Position numbers and translations under genes: made by a program
Assembly (NCBI GenBank): GCA_030656555.1
Contig: JAUSPN010000063.1
Location: 1-37,240 of the forward strand
Reading direction: 5' to 3'
From: Candidatus Desulfaltia sp.
GTDB taxonomy: Bacteria > Desulfobacterota > Desulfobacteria > Desulfobacterales > ETH-SRB1
Length of the DNA: 37,240 nucleotides
Shown: positions 7,625 through 29,578 of the stretch, piece after piece
Layout of the letters: each line of letters starts with the position of its first letter
How positions within the stretch are numbered: position 1 is the stretch's first letter
Notes under the pieces: generated by a model
Databases searched by the model: none
The model's input: the letters and a program-made list of their open reading frames with translations, nothing else
Told to the model about the DNA's origin: nothing

Positions 7625-7710
7625 GAAGCTCCCCGCCGTCCCGATAGGACGGGATCTCCGCTTTGCTCCGACAAGCTACGGGGAATGCGCTCGCTTTTGC
7701 GGTTCAAACC
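7625..7710 (-). repeat. REP-like palindromic repeat, copy 1
   Basis: The ends GAAGCTCCCCGCC and GCGCTCGCTTTTGCGGTTCA recur in inverted orientation at 29,339-29,391, with a different middle. This copy has an inner TCCCG/CGGGA hairpin. It covers the stop codon of the ferredoxin-like gene at 7704, so the repeat supplies that gene's 3' end. Confidence 0.75.
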
Positions 7711-8576
7711 ACGTTTTGAGTCGATTGTGCCAGTGTCTCGATATTTAACGGAATTCCTTTTTCAGCATCCAATATCAGCGAGATGTTTTCTTTTTTACAT
7801 TTGCTTTCGCATATTCCGCAACCAAAACATCTCTCAGGGACAACCTTAACCTTTTTCTTTTCTTTGCCGTTATTCGAAATCGAGATGATTTCTATTGCAT
7901 CGAATTGACAATATTTTACACATTCACCGCAACCGATACAATCCTCTCCAATAACTGCACGATATCCTGATGGAAGAACTGTTTTCATGTTGTATTCAAA
8001 CATGAATTTCAATCCCAAACAGCAGCACTTACAACAGTTGCAAATCGCGTAAAAACGATTTAGCATAGCTGTTTTAAACCACGCCGTATGGACGTGTCCC
8101 CTTTGATCCTCTTCTTTCAGAATCCTTAACGCCTCTTCCGGAGTTATTCTGCGGGAACGAAACGGTTGAACCATACGGCATAGATCCGCAAAAGGCTCGC
8201 CAACGACCAGACATACATCTGTGGGTTTGCAGGGATCTTTTTTTTGAGCTCTGCAAGGGCATTCATAAACTACGATATTTTGAGGATTTTTGAGTATAAT
8301 ATCCTTTGCATATCTATATGGAAGTATTTGATCCAGGTTCCGGAGTTCAATATTTTTATTAATAGTAATGAATTTGGCTGCATCGTCCAATCGAACCACT
8401 TTGCCATGATATGTCTCGCATACGTGGTTGCGAAACAATTTGGAGTTTAGCTTTACAAATTTTTTCAAGACCTTCAGATAGGTTACTGTAGCCGCATATA
8501 ACGTACTATGGATTATGGTTACAGGATTATATTCAGCTTCTTTCAAAGCATAAAGAAGAGACTTAAGCAAAGACAT
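7704..8576 (-). CDS. Cysteine-rich ferredoxin-type protein with two [4Fe-4S] motifs plus extra Cys clusters
   Basis: The 290-residue protein ends in two classical ferredoxin motifs, C213xxC216xxC219xxxC223 and C250xxC253xxC256xxxC260. Two more cysteine groups lie upstream: CPCRAQ..C..C (C106, C108, C116, C122) and a dense CNCCKCCC run at C179-C186. The last could hold an additional cluster. The N-terminal ~100 residues have no recognisable domain, and there are no convincing membrane segments or export signal, so it is probably cytoplasmic electron transfer. A strong AGGAGG site precedes the ATG. The last codons run into the REP-like repeat. Similar proteins appear in anaerobic Desulfobacterota (from memory), but I know no assigned partner. 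Confidence 0.7.
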   Translation of the reverse strand: MSLLKSLLYALKEAEYNPVTIIHSTLYAATVTYLKVLKKFVKLNSKLFRNHVCETYHGKVVRLDDAAKFITINKNIELRNLDQILPYRYAKDIILKNPQNIVVYECPCRAQKKDPCKPTDVCLVVGEPFADLCRMVQPFRSRRITPEEALRILKEEDQRGHVHTAWFKTAMLNRFYAICNCCKCCCLGLKFMFEYNMKTVLPSGYRAVIGEDCIGCGECVKYCQFDAIEIISISNNGKEKKKVKVVPERCFGCGICESKCKKENISLILDAEKGIPLNIETLAQSTQNVV

Positions 8577-8821
8577 ATTAACCTCCTCTTTGATTCCGAG
8601 GCGTGAGCAAATCTGAATTCACCCGCCATCCCCCACTCTTTACTTAAAGAAAATCAATATTCACTCCCTGATGACACAAACTTATAAACCGAAGAACCTC
8701 CCGTACTCCGCTCCGTCAACTTATAAACTAATGTACGTTCCTGAAGCCCTATGCCGACATCGACTGCGGCATGGCTAATGAAGATCTTTGGCCTTCTATC
8801 GTTCATATCCTGCCTCTCTTG
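8577..8821. other. Intergenic region with one hairpin
   Basis: No gene is supported here. ATGCCG at 8751 pairs with CGGCAT at 8767, and flanking AGCC/GGCT extend the stem, giving a stable hairpin of unknown role. The phrase CAACTTATAAACT occurs in near-duplicate around 8688 and 8717. This is the boundary between the ferredoxin-like gene and the cassette array. Confidence 0.5.
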
Positions 8822-8868
8822 CCCAACGAGAAGATCAGCCGGAGCGTAGCGATCTGGTGCATTGTTTT
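8822..8868 (-). repeat. attC-like half site, interrupted by a group IIC intron
   Basis: This matches the site at 11,564-11,618 base for base over its core (CCGGAGCGTAGCGATC with CAGCCGG/CTGGTG arms) and retains the AACG end. The opposite GTTAT end is missing because intron sequence starts directly after TTTT at 8869. Read on minus, it belongs after the hydrolase gene at 9375-10304. Confidence 0.55.
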
Positions 8869-9362
8869 GTGTACGCCCGCCGGCATGGGCGTGAACTTAT
8901 GGGGTGAAAGTCCCATATACGTGAATCCTGCTAATATTTTTGATATATTAGCAAAAGTATTAGCCGAAGGCAAGGGCGTTTCCGTGAGGAAGGGTCTGAA
9001 GGCGGAGCGAAGCGGACGGCTCGCCGCAGGCGAGAGTGAGTGAAACGAACGTCCAACCCGGAGTGCAAAGCTATGAGCCGACGAACAGAAACAGCATACA
9101 AGGCCAAGTTTCCGGGTGAGTTAGCACCACATAACGAAGCCCAGGGTTCAAAAGATATGGTAAACGCTGAGGTTGTGTAGCGAAAGTTCATGTTCTTATC
9201 CGGGGAGATCTGCTTGACGTGGGGTCGTTTTATACGGCAGCGCCCTGTGTGGCAACATACAGGGTGATCAGGTAGAAGTCAGCAGCGGCCATAGTAGGCG
9301 AAGGAAACCATCACTCATGGTGGCGTGGGGGCCGGGGGAGAAAAACTCCCGGCTACCCGATT
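8869..9362 (+). mobile_element. Group IIC intron remnant lacking its reverse-transcriptase ORF and domain V
   Basis: It begins GTGTACGCCC-GGCATGGGCGTG and continues GGGGTGAAAGTCCC, GAAGGCAAGGGCG, GGGTCTGAAGGCGGAGCGAAGCGG (split motif), CATAACGAAGCCC, ATCCGGGGAGATCTG and GTAGAAGTCAGCAG..CCATAGTA. The order and wording match bacterial group IIC ribozymes such as that of Oceanobacillus iheyensis through domains I-III. The last ~40 bases form a domain-VI-like hairpin ending CTACCCGAT. The maturase/reverse-transcriptase gene of domain IV and the catalytic domain V are missing, so it cannot splice by itself. It lies opposite to the cassette genes, as reported for group IIC-attC introns. Confidence 0.8.
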
Positions 9363-9374
9363 CGGATTCTTAAC

Positions 9375-10304
9375 TTATTTTCCTGACAGCATAAGGATTG
9401 CTTTCTCCAGGGCACTGTTGAATTCCTCTGGCCGATCGATCATTAAGAAATGATCAGCTTTCTTCAAAACAATCGCATCATAAGAAAGCATATGCCTCCG
9501 GTTTGCTTCATGGTTGATAGGCCACAAATCTCCATTTACGGTTATGACAGGAATTCGGATCTTTTCAAATATCTTAGCCGCTTCTCCTGTGATGTACTGC
9601 GACATCATTTCGTTCATTGCACTTAGGGCAACAGCGGGTGGTGCGGCTGAAATATCCGAGAGTATCCACTCGCGAAGCCGTGGATCAGTGCTGGGCGAGA
9701 TCATCTCCCTTACAAACTGCTGACTTCCTGTTCGAAAATCCTTCTCCAACGGAGAGAGCATCTTCTTGAGTTCTTCGCGCGTCATCGGATAATCAATGTT
9801 TTCCAGTGTGTCGATACCTATTAATCCCACAATGCGGTTCGGCATGAGTCGGGCAGCCTCAGCAATCACCGAACCGCCCATGGAGTGGCCTATAAGAATA
9901 ACCTTGTTACTGCCTGTTGCTTCTGTTACTGCTCGTACATCCTCTCCGAAAGCCCCCATGGCATAGGTGGAGCGAGCCATTCCTGAATGGCCGTGGCCTG
10001 CAAGATCAAGAACGATAACGCGATATTTCTTGGAAAAGACTGGCACTTGGGCACGCCAGTAACGGGCGTCGCAACTCCAACCATGTACAAATATCAGAGT
10101 CGGGTCTCCAGAACCGTAGACCTCATACGAGATCAGAACACCATCTTTGGATGTGGCGAAATGGGGCCAATTTGTTTGTGCCGGCACTGTTCCAACAGTC
10201 AAGATCAGGAGCATCAGACAACTTAAGAGACTCACCAAATGCCTTGTGGCTGTTTTACCACCGAGTGCGCTATTTTTCCGAACGTTATTTGTTTCAACCT
10301 TCAT
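9375..10304 (-). CDS. Exported alpha/beta-fold hydrolase (integron cassette gene)
   Basis: The 309-residue protein starts with a signal-peptide-like segment (RHLVSLLSCLMLLILTVGTVPAQ), then an alpha/beta hydrolase: FVHGWSCDARYW oxyanion region, the nucleophile elbow GHSMGG, an acid in NGDLWP and a catalytic His in KADHFLMID. The substrate is unknown; esterase or lactonase activity is plausible. The start is the ATG complementary to 10302-10304, behind AGGAGAG; a longer frame would cross the attC site. It is the last complete cassette on the minus strand, with its own attC broken by the intron. Confidence 0.8.
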   Translation of the reverse strand: MKVETNNVRKNSALGGKTATRHLVSLLSCLMLLILTVGTVPAQTNWPHFATSKDGVLISYEVYGSGDPTLIFVHGWSCDARYWRAQVPVFSKKYRVIVLDLAGHGHSGMARSTYAMGAFGEDVRAVTEATGSNKVILIGHSMGGSVIAEAARLMPNRIVGLIGIDTLENIDYPMTREELKKMLSPLEKDFRTGSQQFVREMISPSTDPRLREWILSDISAAPPAVALSAMNEMMSQYITGEAAKIFEKIRIPVITVNGDLWPINHEANRRHMLSYDAIVLKKADHFLMIDRPEEFNSALEKAILMLSGK

Positions 10305-10323
10305 TATCTCTCTCTCCTTCTTT

Positions 10324-10384
10324 CCGAACGCACTGGGTGTGGGGCGACGCGCAGCGGCGTCCCACACGACCCAGATGTTATGTG
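10324..10384 (-). repeat. attC-like recombination site
   Basis: On minus, ACATAAC opens and GTTCGGA closes a 61-base imperfect palindrome. CTGGGT..GTGGG arms pair with CCCAC..ACCCAG around a GC-rich tip. It lies between two minus-strand genes, just ahead of the hydrolase ribosome site, which is cassette geometry. Confidence 0.6.
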
Positions 10385-10392
10385 TTTTCAAT

Positions 10393-10890
10393 TTAAAGGA
10401 TTGTCCACGATTGAAGCGACAAGGCTTCTCTTATTAACGCAGTAAATATGTCTGGCTTTATTCCCTTTTTGATTTTTGGCAAATCACTTACAGCCCCAGT
10501 AGCATATCCATTCTCATCAATACTGACTGTCAATAGAACGTTAAGATAGTCAGACGATAGATCCAAGAAATCGGCAACGGTCTTTGAACGCTGAATAAAA
10601 CCAATGAAGGCACTCATCCGATTATCGAACATGCCATCAAGTGATTGCCTTGGTAGGCTAGACTCTCTAATCGTATGTAGGTTTTCAATGAATAAATCGC
10701 TTATCGCCTTCCTTAATACAGGTTTCAGCTTGTGATACACTCTGTAGTCATAGACGAAGTAAAAGAAAAACATGAATTCGAATTCAACGAAGTCCCGATT
10801 CTCATTGAAGATTGGAATCTGTTGGGAACAGCTTTTTACATCTTTCTCGATTTGAGATAAATACTTCTGGGCTTTGACTTTCTCAAACAT
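10393..10890 (-). CDS. Hypothetical protein, cassette gene
   Basis: I do not recognise this 165-residue protein. It is predicted soluble and helical, with an aromatic-rich segment EFEFMFFFYFVYDYRVY near residues 36-52 and no signal peptide or cysteine motif. The gene is flanked on both sides by attC-like palindromes in the correct orientation (10,914-10,982 upstream, 10,324-10,384 downstream), so it is most likely a mobile integron cassette. Cassette genes commonly lack known families. The start has a weak AGGGAT site 8 bases upstream. Confidence 0.65.
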   Translation of the reverse strand: MFEKVKAQKYLSQIEKDVKSCSQQIPIFNENRDFVEFEFMFFFYFVYDYRVYHKLKPVLRKAISDLFIENLHTIRESSLPRQSLDGMFDNRMSAFIGFIQRSKTVADFLDLSSDYLNVLLTVSIDENGYATGAVSDLPKIKKGIKPDIFTALIREALSLQSWTIL

Positions 10891-10913
10891 ACTGATCCCT
10901 TATAGTATGCTGG

Positions 10914-10982
10914 CACATAACGACTAAGATAAGGGGAAACAGGCCCGCAGGGGCTGGTTTCCCCTTAATTGCCTGGTTATCT
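10914..10982 (-). repeat. attC-like recombination site
   Basis: This is the clearest site. On minus it opens GATAAC and closes CGTTATGTG, the same closing core as Vibrio cholerae VCR repeats. Between them TTAAGGGGAAAC pairs with GTTTCCCCTTA around a GCCC/GGGC tip, with one unpaired base. It is 69 bases long. The stop codon TAA of the upstream cassette gene (10,977) lies inside the opening core, as is common in cassettes. Confidence 0.7.
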
Positions 10983-11543
10983 GTCTTTTTTTGTGTCTTC
11001 TTGTTGCATTCTTTTTATTTCAGAACTCAAAGATTCCAACTTCGTTTTTATTTCTTTGTAATCAGGATCTGAAACCTTAAGAACATCTCTGTCTTGCAAC
11101 AACCTGTCTATTTCGTTGTATTTAGCGGAGAATTTTTTAATTTCCTGTATTTCTTTGTCGCTAAAATCAAAATCATTCATTAATTCATTCAACTTGTGGT
11201 CATACCATTCTCGTTTTATTCGATATCCTTCTTTACTATCCATTCTCCCATTATCAGCACTACTGAATGCTAATATCTCAGACATAACAAAGGCGGTTTT
11301 TTTTAGATCATCTTGTTTTGCAAATATTTCTGCCTTTGTTTCTTTTATTTCTGACAAGATTAATCTTAAATTCTTAATATCCAGTTCTTTTATGCGATCA
11401 AATCCGTAAAAAGCAAAACCGCTTATCAATACAACGCTTATGAAGGAAACAAAGCTCGCAGCCCCAAGCTTTCCTTTCTCCAAAAAATATACACCAAAGA
11501 CCAATAATGAAATAAATACAAATGATCCAAAAAATTTTTTCAT
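10977..11543 (-). CDS. Hypothetical two-helix membrane protein with coiled coil, cassette gene
   Basis: The 188-residue protein has two N-terminal hydrophobic helices (FFGSFVFISLLVFGVYFL and AASFVSFISVVLISGFAFYGF), then a long charged, heptad-rich region to the C-terminus. It is probably an inner-membrane protein with a cytoplasmic coiled coil. No family is recognised. The stop codon overlaps the attC-like site at 10,914-10,982, and another attC-like site lies just upstream of the start, so this is a cassette. The start codon follows a weak site (GAGGAC). Confidence 0.65.
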   Translation of the reverse strand: MKKFFGSFVFISLLVFGVYFLEKGKLGAASFVSFISVVLISGFAFYGFDRIKELDIKNLRLILSEIKETKAEIFAKQDDLKKTAFVMSEILAFSSADNGRMDSKEGYRIKREWYDHKLNELMNDFDFSDKEIQEIKKFSAKYNEIDRLLQDRDVLKVSDPDYKEIKTKLESLSSEIKRMQQEDTKKDR

Positions 11544-11563
11544 TTAGTCCTCATTTTTCTACA

Positions 11564-11618
11564 GATAACGAAAAAATCACCCGGAGCGTAGCGATCGGGT
11601 GTATTGCTTTTGTTATAT
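11564..11618 (-). repeat. attC-like recombination site
   Basis: On minus it opens ATATAAC-AAAAGC and closes TTTTTTCGTTATCT. AATACACCCG pairs with CGGGTGATT around a CGCTACGCTC tip. It is 55 bases long. The stop of the upstream gene (11,613) is inside the opening core. Its core is nearly identical to the intron-broken half site at 8,822-8,868. Confidence 0.68.
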
Positions 11619-12197
11619 GATTTTTTTGGTAAACAAATTTTTCCTCTTCTCCCAGTAAATAATATTTGGCAATAGCCAAATTAACGCACCAAAGAAAATG
11701 CGTAAAACTAACTGAGTGCCCGGTTCCTCATACCCATAACTAAGCTTAATAAATCTTGGCAAAGTGACTCCACCATAATAACTCATTAAAAGGGCAACCC
11801 AGTTTAATCTCCACGCCCACAATTTTCTAAAGTGCAGCCCCCATGCTGTTGATAACTGCACTATCGCAAACATAGCTGCTATAAAACAAAATAAAATATC
11901 AGGTGAAAATAAAACAGTGTAGATGTTAATAATGCCACTAATTGGTAAGCAAAAATAGTTCCAAATACTTAACCATTTTGTTTTTAAAATTACTTTCTCA
12001 ATTGATCGAGGTGTTGTTTCTTCAGATTGAGTGGTAAGTTCTGCCGGTATTTCATCTGAAACTCCCCTCGTATTCAAAATTTCATTAATTACACCCAAAG
12101 CAACATCGGTTAAACCGCCCTTCCGCCGTAGCTCGATGAGTTCATCTGTTTCCACAGTGCTGTATCGCTGCCGCAGATACTCCGCCTTGATCTCCAT
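11613..12197 (-). CDS. Hypothetical polytopic membrane protein, cassette gene
   Basis: The 194-residue protein has a soluble N-terminus (EYLRQRYSTVETDELIELRRKGG, residues ~5-27) followed by about four membrane helices between residues 80 and 185. The N-terminal pattern YxxMxxxELxxLxxKGGLTD-like is seen in small proteins of cassettes and accessory regions, but I cannot name a family. A strong AGGAGGT site precedes the ATG. It is flanked by an attC-like site at its stop and a weaker one upstream of its start. Confidence 0.68.
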   Translation of the reverse strand: MEIKAEYLRQRYSTVETDELIELRRKGGLTDVALGVINEILNTRGVSDEIPAELTTQSEETTPRSIEKVILKTKWLSIWNYFCLPISGIINIYTVLFSPDILFCFIAAMFAIVQLSTAWGLHFRKLWAWRLNWVALLMSYYGGVTLPRFIKLSYGYEEPGTQLVLRIFFGALIWLLPNIIYWEKRKNLFTKKII

Positions 12198-12214
12198 TGA
12201 GCTTACCTCCTATA

Positions 12215-12264
12215 CATATAACAATATATTGAATAGTTTCCTTTCAATATCAGGACGTTACGAG
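12215..12264 (-). repeat. Possible degenerate attC-like site
   Basis: On minus GTAACG opens and TTGTTATATG closes a 50-base palindrome whose arms GATATTGAA and TTCAATAT pair. It precedes the ribosome site of the cassette gene at 11,613-12,197. It is shorter and more AT-rich than the others and may mark the array edge. Confidence 0.4.
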
Positions 12265-12367
12265 ATTGTCAATATCACATTTAAATGTTGTTGGCAAATC
12301 TATCTGATATTATGATTTTAACTAAGTTGTTCAATATCTAATTTTTATTCTTAGGAGGTTTCTGTTC

Positions 12368-12487
12368 AATGCCGATGCTGTCTGTCCTGACCAGATACGT
12401 TTGTTCATCGACAAGTTGGTGCAGGATTTGCTGGACGCCCCTCAGTTTATAAGTTTATATCGTCAAGAAGTGACTTTTTGTATTTAG
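12368..12487 (+). pseudogene. Possible gene remnant
   Basis: A 39-codon open stretch reads NADAVCPDQIRLFIDKLVQDLL and onward to a TAG. Composition is protein-like (amphipathic helix) but there is no start with a ribosome site in frame, and no family is recognised. It could be the tail of a lost cassette or transposase. Confidence 0.2.
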
Positions 12488-12572
12488 AAAAGCCGAGTTA
12501 GTGCTTTAAAAAGTATAGCGCAGCTGCATACGTCAAGAAATTTGTAGAATCACAATAAATTACATGTGGTTA

Positions 12573-12611
12573 ATATTGGAACGGAGAGCAGGGAGCATAT
12601 AGTTCCAATAT
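12573..12611. repeat. Inverted repeat upstream of the ilv promoter
   Basis: ATATTGGAAC and GTTCCAATAT form perfect ten-base arms around 19 bases. There is no U-tract. It lies about 40 bases before the ilv -35 box and could be an operator or an mRNA hairpin. Confidence 0.45.
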
Positions 12612-12649
12612 CTTGACAAGATACCATCAAAAAAACTATTAAAAATAGC

Positions 12650-12678
12650 TTGACACTATATATGGGGTTTGTTAAAAA
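12650..12678 (+). promoter_or_regulatory. Sigma-70 promoter of the ilv-leu operon
   Basis: A perfect TTGACA at 12,650-12,655, a 17-base spacer and TAAAAA at 12,673-12,678. Transcription would begin about 35 bases before the leader-peptide ATG. A second TTGACA at 12,613 with TATTAA 18 bases on may be a tandem promoter. Confidence 0.6.
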
Positions 12679-12719
12679 TTTAACTTTATTAAATCCTATT
12701 ATTAATTCTGACAAAAATT

Positions 12720-24088: not shown

Positions 24089-24181
24089 GAGGTCAACTTG
24101 CGCTTTGTTCGGAATTTCCAGTATCCCGTTCATATGTACATTTTACCTGTAATAGTGGGTAAGTCAAGATGATATTTTAAG

Positions 24182-24235
24182 CCGAACGGTCGGTATAAGT
24201 GGCGGCTTTAGCCGTCCGACTTAATACCGTTGTGT
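24182..24235 (-). repeat. attC-like palindrome abutting an intron fragment
   Basis: On minus it opens ACACAAC and closes GTTCGGC. GGTATTAAGTCGGACGGC pairs imperfectly with GCCGCCACTTATACC around TAAA, with extrahelical bases as in attC sites. It follows the flavodiiron gene on the same strand. The group IIC intron fragment starts inside its opening core. Confidence 0.45.
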
Positions 24236-24290
24236 ACGCCCGGCAAGGGCGGAATCGTGAGGTTCTGTCTGAAGGCAAAGCAAAGCGCAA
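24232..24290 (+). mobile_element. Group IIC intron fragment with internal deletion
   Basis: It has the same 5' end (GTGTACGCCCGGCA) as the copies at 8,869 and 29,401, then jumps to AGGGCGGAATCGTGAGG and GTCTGAAGGC, losing about 90 bases. The join lies at GGCA-N-GGGCG, a phrase present at both sides in the full copies. Sequence similarity ends near 24,290, about 30 bases after the flavodiiron stop. Confidence 0.75.
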
Positions 24291-29115: not shown

Positions 29116-29364
29116 TTATTTATAGGCATCTTTACGATGACGAATCCGATAAATGATTAAATTTTCTTCCTCTATTTCAAAAAGGATTCTGTGATCGCCG
29201 ACTCTTAGTCGATACTCTGGACTAAAATTTGTTAAACGTTTTACATCTCCCTTTAGCCCACCCGACATCTTTTCAATCTGCTCAAAAATATGTGTCAGTT
29301 GAGACTTGGAGATTTTTCTGCAATCTTTCAAAGCCCTTGGTTTGAACCGCAAAAGCGAGCGCAT
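29116..29364 (-). CDS. RelE/ParE-family toxin with repeat-derived N-terminus
   Basis: The core ALKDCRKISKSQLTHIFEQI, GDVKRLTNFSPEYRLRVGDH and YRIRHRKDAYK is a RelE/StbE-type toxin, a predicted ribosome-dependent mRNA interferase. From an ATG at 29,362-29,364 it has 82 residues. The first nine (MRSLLRFKP) are encoded by the REP-like repeat whose other copy lies at 7,625-7,710. The original start has therefore probably been replaced; homologs usually begin with a beta strand just before ALKDL. No ribosome site lies before this ATG, so expression is uncertain. Confidence 0.7.
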   Translation of the reverse strand: MRSLLRFKPRALKDCRKISKSQLTHIFEQIEKMSGGLKGDVKRLTNFSPEYRLRVGDHRILFEIEEENLIIYRIRHRKDAYK

Positions 29365-29391
29365 TCCCCGCTGCTTGCGGCGGGGAGCTTC
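29339..29391 (+). repeat. REP-like palindromic repeat, copy 2
   Basis: GGTTTGAACCGCAAAAGCG and AGCGCATTCCCCGC match copy 1 (7,625-7,710) in inverse orientation, and CCCCGC..GCGGCGGGG forms a hairpin. It overlaps the toxin 5' end and is followed after nine bases by a group IIC intron fragment. Confidence 0.75.
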
Positions 29392-29400
29392 AATTGATTT

Positions 29401-29578
29401 GTGTACGCCCGGCATGGGCGTGAACTTGTGGGGTGAAAGTCCCCTATACGTGATCTTGTTAATATTTTGATATATTAACAAAAGTATTAGCTGAAGGCAA
29501 GGGCGGAATCATGAGGTTCAGTCTGAAGGCGAGCGAAACGGAAGGCTCGCCGCAGGCGAAAGTGAGTGAAGCGAAACA
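29401..29578 (+). mobile_element. Group IIC intron 5' fragment
   Basis: About 178 bases match the 5' part of the 8,869 copy: GTGTACGCCCGGCATGGGCG, GGGGTGAAAGTCCCC, GAAGGCAAGGGCGG, GTCTGAAGGCGAGCG and GAAAGTGAGTGAAGCGAA. It ends before domain II and abuts the tRNA-Leu terminator. It lies just after a hairpin plus T-rich bases, the sort of site group IIC introns choose. Confidence 0.8.

Follow-up and report, generated by a model that had tools for sequence, protein, structure and literature searches.

A probable integrase-less cassette array with an intron-split terminal attC site in Candidatus Desulfaltia

The stretch of Candidatus Desulfaltia sp. DNA analysed here (37,240 nucleotides, hereafter the window) very probably carries an integrase-less integron cassette array (CALIN), of which a fourth attC site was split by a group IIC-attC intron that has since decayed. 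The array and the intron confirm each other. An earlier note, made by reading the sequence alone, had proposed the CALIN, and this proposal is supported because the cores and hairpins of the sites stand out against shuffled sequences, a stem is shared with contig C26, the intron sits within the terminal attC, the insertion site is empty in congeners, and the cassette genes include orphans. The intron relic inside the terminal attC and a probable truncated fifth cassette had been overlooked.

Genes and hairpins of the array

Four genes lie in tandem on the minus strand, which is the cassette strand, between positions 8821 and 12222. The gene ORF4 (11613-12197, 194 residues) encodes a probable membrane protein, as judged by eye, that belongs to no family. 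It is followed by ORF3 (10977-11543, 188 residues), to which no family is assigned above cut-off, and by the orphan ORF2 (10393-10890, 165 residues), while ORF1 (9375-10304, 309 residues) encodes an alpha/beta hydrolase (PF00561, 6e-22), the hydrolase that had been announced among the cassette genes. ORF2, ORF3, and ORF4 return no Pfam or NCBIfam match above cut-off and no PADLOC match. A search of relatives with these three proteins reports no match in the 388 other genomes of the order (E 1e-6), and ORF3 and ORF4 have no match in plasmids either.

Each of ORF4, ORF3, and ORF2 is followed by an imperfect palindrome with an AAC core and a GTT core, and direct reading finds the four minus-strand genes and the three palindromes parting them all in place, with the cores that had been described. 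These minus-strand sites are located at 11563-11618 (ATATAAC..GTTATCT), 10915-10982 (AGATAAC..GTTATGT), and 10323-10383 (ACATAAC..GTTCGGA). We call attC sites by our own core-plus-hairpin rule, a first hairpin finder having proved too loose to be useful. In its strict form, the cores match RYYYAAC and GTTRRRY at 5 or more of 7 positions, the site measures 45-79 bp, and it folds into one hairpin reaching near its ends with a DNA minimum free energy of at most -0.19 kcal/nt. Two of the three array sites, those at 11563-11618 and 10323-10383, pass this rule in the segment 9367-12265, while 298 of 300 shuffles contain no site and two contain one; when the threshold is loosened to -0.16, these counts become 285 and 15. 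The relaxed rule, adopted after the strict one missed the site at 10915-10982, lets the outer cores stay unpaired. With it, exactly the three array sites are found on the minus strand of 9362-12265, against no site in 492 and one site in 8 of 500 dinucleotide shuffles. Over the minus strand of the whole window, 1892-1943 and 24181-24235 pass besides the array sites, and these same two segments pass on the plus strand, together with two of the three array sites.

More stable folding of the bottom strand is a trait of attC sites. The check on this point turns out in favor of the array, since all three sites are more stable on the bottom strand than on the top strand (-18.0 vs -13.7, -16.2 vs -14.6, and -11.0 vs -9.0). 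Ten attC sites aligned poorly with MAFFT, and their loop-trimmed versions appear out of register by eye. The weaker site that was said to bound the array (12216-12263, minus strand) does not hold up as an attC: it folds at only -4.3/-4.7 kcal and is retained as a weak candidate upstream recombination site, with an R'-like core GTTATAT at 12216-12222, 18 nt ahead of the ORF4 start.

With three sites under our core-plus-hairpin rule, genes on a single strand, and no adjacent intI, the array resembles the CALINs of IntegronFinder, which comprise at least two attC sites, same-strand genes, and no adjoining integrase. Unlike a typical CALIN, its terminal attC is split by an intron, giving three whole sites and a split one, when CALINs contain on average almost 6 attC sites according to PMC9024848.

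The intron relic in the terminal attC site

The half site that the earlier note placed at 8821 is real, and it is the stem of the fourth attC. The main part of this minus-strand site (8821-8870) comprises the R' core, which reads GCCCAAC on the plus strand (8821-8827), and the stem, while the rest of R'' is formed by 5 nt (9362-9366, TCGGA on the plus strand). Joining the GT at 8869-8870 to this TCGGA restores an R'' core GTTCGGA. The stem GCCGGAGCGTAGCGAT recurs with one base changed in the attC at 11563-11618, and an attC-like site on C26, another contig of this genome, has it unchanged. Given the rejoined cores and this recurring stem, the half site is therefore assigned as a fourth attC split inside R''; once rejoined, it folds weakly (-4.5 kcal).

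The intervening 491 bp (8871-9361, plus strand) are the relic of a group II intron of the IIC-attC kind, both ends of which are legible: ...TTGTTTTGT / GTACGCCC ... CTACCCGAT / TCGGATTC. Rfam reports group II intron domains at 8978-9194 and 9241-9332 on the plus strand, with hits above the gathering score for RF02001 (96.3 bits) and RF01998 (44.9 bits), which identify a group II intron RNA with domains I-IV. Compared with a 2060-bp relative from G007, a genome of the same family, the relic is devoid of segments 365-529 and 591-2017, corresponding to the reverse transcriptase (RT) gene and the 5' half of domain V (domain V being assigned by reading). Hence it possesses no intact domain V with a catalytic triad, and its 491 bp leave no room for an intron-encoded RT. 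The full-length G007 relative contains a 399-residue RT frame after one in-frame TGA. The window copy is a relic of this family and not a working member, and it should be unable to splice.

The intron is inserted at TTGT/T and in the orientation opposite to the cassettes, and this target site and orientation suggest that it belongs to class IIC. According to PMC7923331, the insertion point of IIC-attC introns is TTGT/T in R'', with the intron facing opposite to the cassettes, in CALINs too. The relic thus resembles the group IIC-attC introns S.ma.I2 and UHB.F1, and a truncated UHB.F1 copy in a cassette array has already been described (PMC7923331). That copy is described there as 5'-truncated and as retaining most of its RT, whereas the window copy is preserved at both ends and has lost the RT along with half of domain V. 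Similar to the ORF-less group II introns of bacteria, the relic is devoid of an intron-encoded protein. PMC4424553 describes such introns as uncommon among bacteria and as having a related RT alongside in nearly every case; in contrast, domain V is damaged here, and the sole RVT_1 match of the genome, a group II maturase frame, lies on contig C44 beside an intron of another Rfam class. In the most likely course of events, a group IIC-attC intron entered the R'' core of the fourth attC opposite to the cassettes, and internal deletions then removed its RT and half of domain V. The split terminal attC can probably no longer recombine.

Outward promoters have been reported for IIC-attC introns (PMC8876359), and the next gene downstream of the relic (7704-8576) lies on the minus strand. 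That an outward promoter of the relic would drive this gene is nevertheless quite improbable, as a scan of 8500-12700 for sigma-70-type promoters returns 5 sites, all of them on the plus strand, against a shuffle mean of 9.3 over both strands.

Beyond the split attC, a frame opening with MNDRRPKIFISHAAVD starts 14 nt past the R' core and is soon lost. It is probably the start of a truncated fifth cassette (8657-8806, minus strand), the later part of which is an interspersed repeat. By eye, this frame resembles a TIR-domain N-terminus, a likeness matched by neither a Pfam nor a PADLOC hit. The short interspersed repeat (GTTTATAAGTTT and about 20 bases) is present in inverted copies at both edges of the insert (8679-8741 and 12433-12471), and the right-edge copy has 19 other matching places in the genome. 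Just before ilvD, the segment 12720-12885 encodes a leader peptide rich in Ile/Val/Leu, MKKLSAIYSLINLIIVLVVGILPHCEEGA, with a hairpin and a T run behind it, and looks like a branched-chain amino acid attenuator; the start of this leader is also present in congeners G004 and G005.

Two further relics of the intron family are found in the window. A lone attC-like hairpin accepted by the finder (24181-24233, no strand assigned, ending in TTGT) precedes a second, internally deleted relic (24234-24276, plus strand, right end set by eye): after ...GTTGT, the bases GTACGCCCGG are the first bases of the array's intron. This provides an independent check, since the hairpin (24181-24235) had been accepted before the adjoining intron start was read, although its fold shows no bottom-strand advantage (-11.7 vs -11.8). 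The third relic (29403-29575, plus strand) comprises the 5' part only and follows a G+C-rich hairpin that is not attC-like. Overall, the genome has six copies of the 14-base intron start (at most one mismatch), half of them in the window, and the reversed control has none. Upstream folds of seven copies from this genome, a set taken without controls, range from -5.3 to -12.9 kcal, the array copy being the weakest.

The genome does contain REP-like G+C-rich hairpins, as seen by eye, one of which (29360-29402) served as the intron target at 29403, and IIC introns are known to insert after terminators (PMC4424553). It is very unlikely, however, that the three palindromes represent intrinsic terminators of the ordinary type or REP-like repeats that happen to lie between unrelated genes: 4 terminator-like sites are returned in 8500-12700 (shuffle mean 3.8) and none overlaps the three hairpins, which bear AAC and GTT cores at their two ends and one stem of which recurs on C26.

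Integrases and chromosomal setting

Regarding the integrase, neither PF00589 nor TIGR02249 is among the matches listed for the window's contig (C14), in agreement with the earlier note. Its term integrase-less applies to the contig and not to the genome, a 107-contig draft, because four IntI proteins above the TIGR02249 cut-off (410-450 bits) are encoded on contigs C25, C43, C78, and C23. The loose finder alone reports an attC-like pair next to the C25 integrase, and the stricter one does not list it. As bottom-strand hairpins, the three whole attC sites of the array could recombine in trans via any of these four IntI.

The flanking gene at 7704-8576 shares 87-94% protein identity with its counterparts in five close genomes, four of which are congeners. 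It is thus present in four of six congeners (G001, G003, G004, and G005), and returns no match in G002 and G006. The insertion site spans 121, 274, and 179 bp in three congeners, versus about 4.0 kb in the window. This count covers the three congeners with both flanks within the fetched stretch; G001 and the more distant G009 are excluded because their right flank is unaligned in the stretches fetched. Reading the exact array boundaries from the congeners was tried and abandoned, as the intergenic region varies among these three too and the insertion points are unreadable. The same four genes in the same order and free of palindromes, an arrangement that would speak against cassettes, were not seen in relatives. 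That the array instead belongs to a complete integron, with an integrase that dropped out of the assembly, is extremely unlikely. The assembly is admittedly a draft, four IntI are encoded on its other contigs, and PMC9024848 warns of spurious CALINs in draft genomes. However, the array sits 8.8 kb into a contig of 37 kb, conserved chromosomal genes flank it on either side, and in three congeners these flanking segments are almost adjacent.

The intron family in other genomes

One scan of 84,980 species genomes with the intron start reports 40 stretches. The titles of 32 of them name Desulfo-, Syntropho(bacterales/aceae) or Deltaproteobacteria, and those of the remaining 8 Planctomycetota, Nitrospirae/Nitrospiraceae, Pseudomonadota/Proteobacteria, Spirochaetales, and one archaeal bin. 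Matches to the intron occur in 103 of 370 genomes of the window's order, among them 15 of the 17 in its family and all 7 in its genus (own genome counted). The four bases preceding GTACGCC are TTGT in 18 and TGGT in 8 of 35 stretches, namely those of the 40 where this start was found. For 37 of the 40 stretches, the sequence extends far enough upstream to fold the 58 nt that precede the intron; these fold more stably than 74 controls (median -9.1 vs -3.45, p 5.8e-8), and AAC cores located 38-66 nt upstream are modestly enriched (20/37 vs 24/74 controls). A 3' end is readable in 11 copies, namely the window's and those of 10 named loci, and in 9 of them the rejoined core begins with GTT; of 41 copies, 5 had no recognised start and were left out, as were others that lacked the 3' motif, and the 3' ends of L056 and L060, taken as the first motif found, may belong to nested introns.

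A tblastn match to the RT is found in 2 of the 40 named loci, a scarcity that is partly an assembly effect, because only 15 of the 40 run at least 3 kb past the intron start. A further 31 loci include the window itself and a Methylocalor plasmid, and most come with only about 1.5 kb of flank; the RT query matches 9 of them, in one case weakly. In L060, L144, and perhaps L138 and L141, the intron RT reading is broken at the YADD box, and L060 and, by eye, L144 have another group II RT after it; introns therefore seem to be nested at this box. In L005, an intron piece seems by eye to interrupt a frame resembling a REP-associated transposase, and in L003 domains V-VI of another group II intron (1644-1719, RF00029, minus strand) abut a fragment of the array-intron family.

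Three RT-less copies, L040 and L064 from one genome and L050 from another (titled Pseudomonadota), display a common inner deletion structure and retain the last 95 or so bases, domains V-VI, within three different flanks. RT-less derivatives of attC-targeting introns might thus be copied from site to site by RTs acting in trans, in Desulfobacterota and neighbours, although we consider this rather unlikely. They would then act like miniature non-autonomous elements, of which the window copy would be a further-decayed one. The domain I deletions of these three copies vary, which counts against trans copying, and such copying would therefore have to predate the decay. DNA recombination is a possible alternative source of the shared deletion structure.

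Both the cassette array and the attC intron are of known kinds, and their combination comes near to cases already in the literature. What stands out is how many RT-less intron pieces this lineage contains, along with the L040, L064, and L050 copies. According to PMC4424553, non-mobile group II introns are rare in bacteria and short-lived. This view fits poorly with the six intron 5' ends counted in the present 2.7-Mb draft genome, where the search returned no related RT, and with the intron matches in 103 of 370 genomes of the order. The array also indicates that a true cassette array can be found by tool-free reading of sequence, and that attC sites can be marked independently by a site-specific intron. 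Lastly, the splitting of a terminal attC may be one of the ways by which cassettes become fixed in a chromosome.
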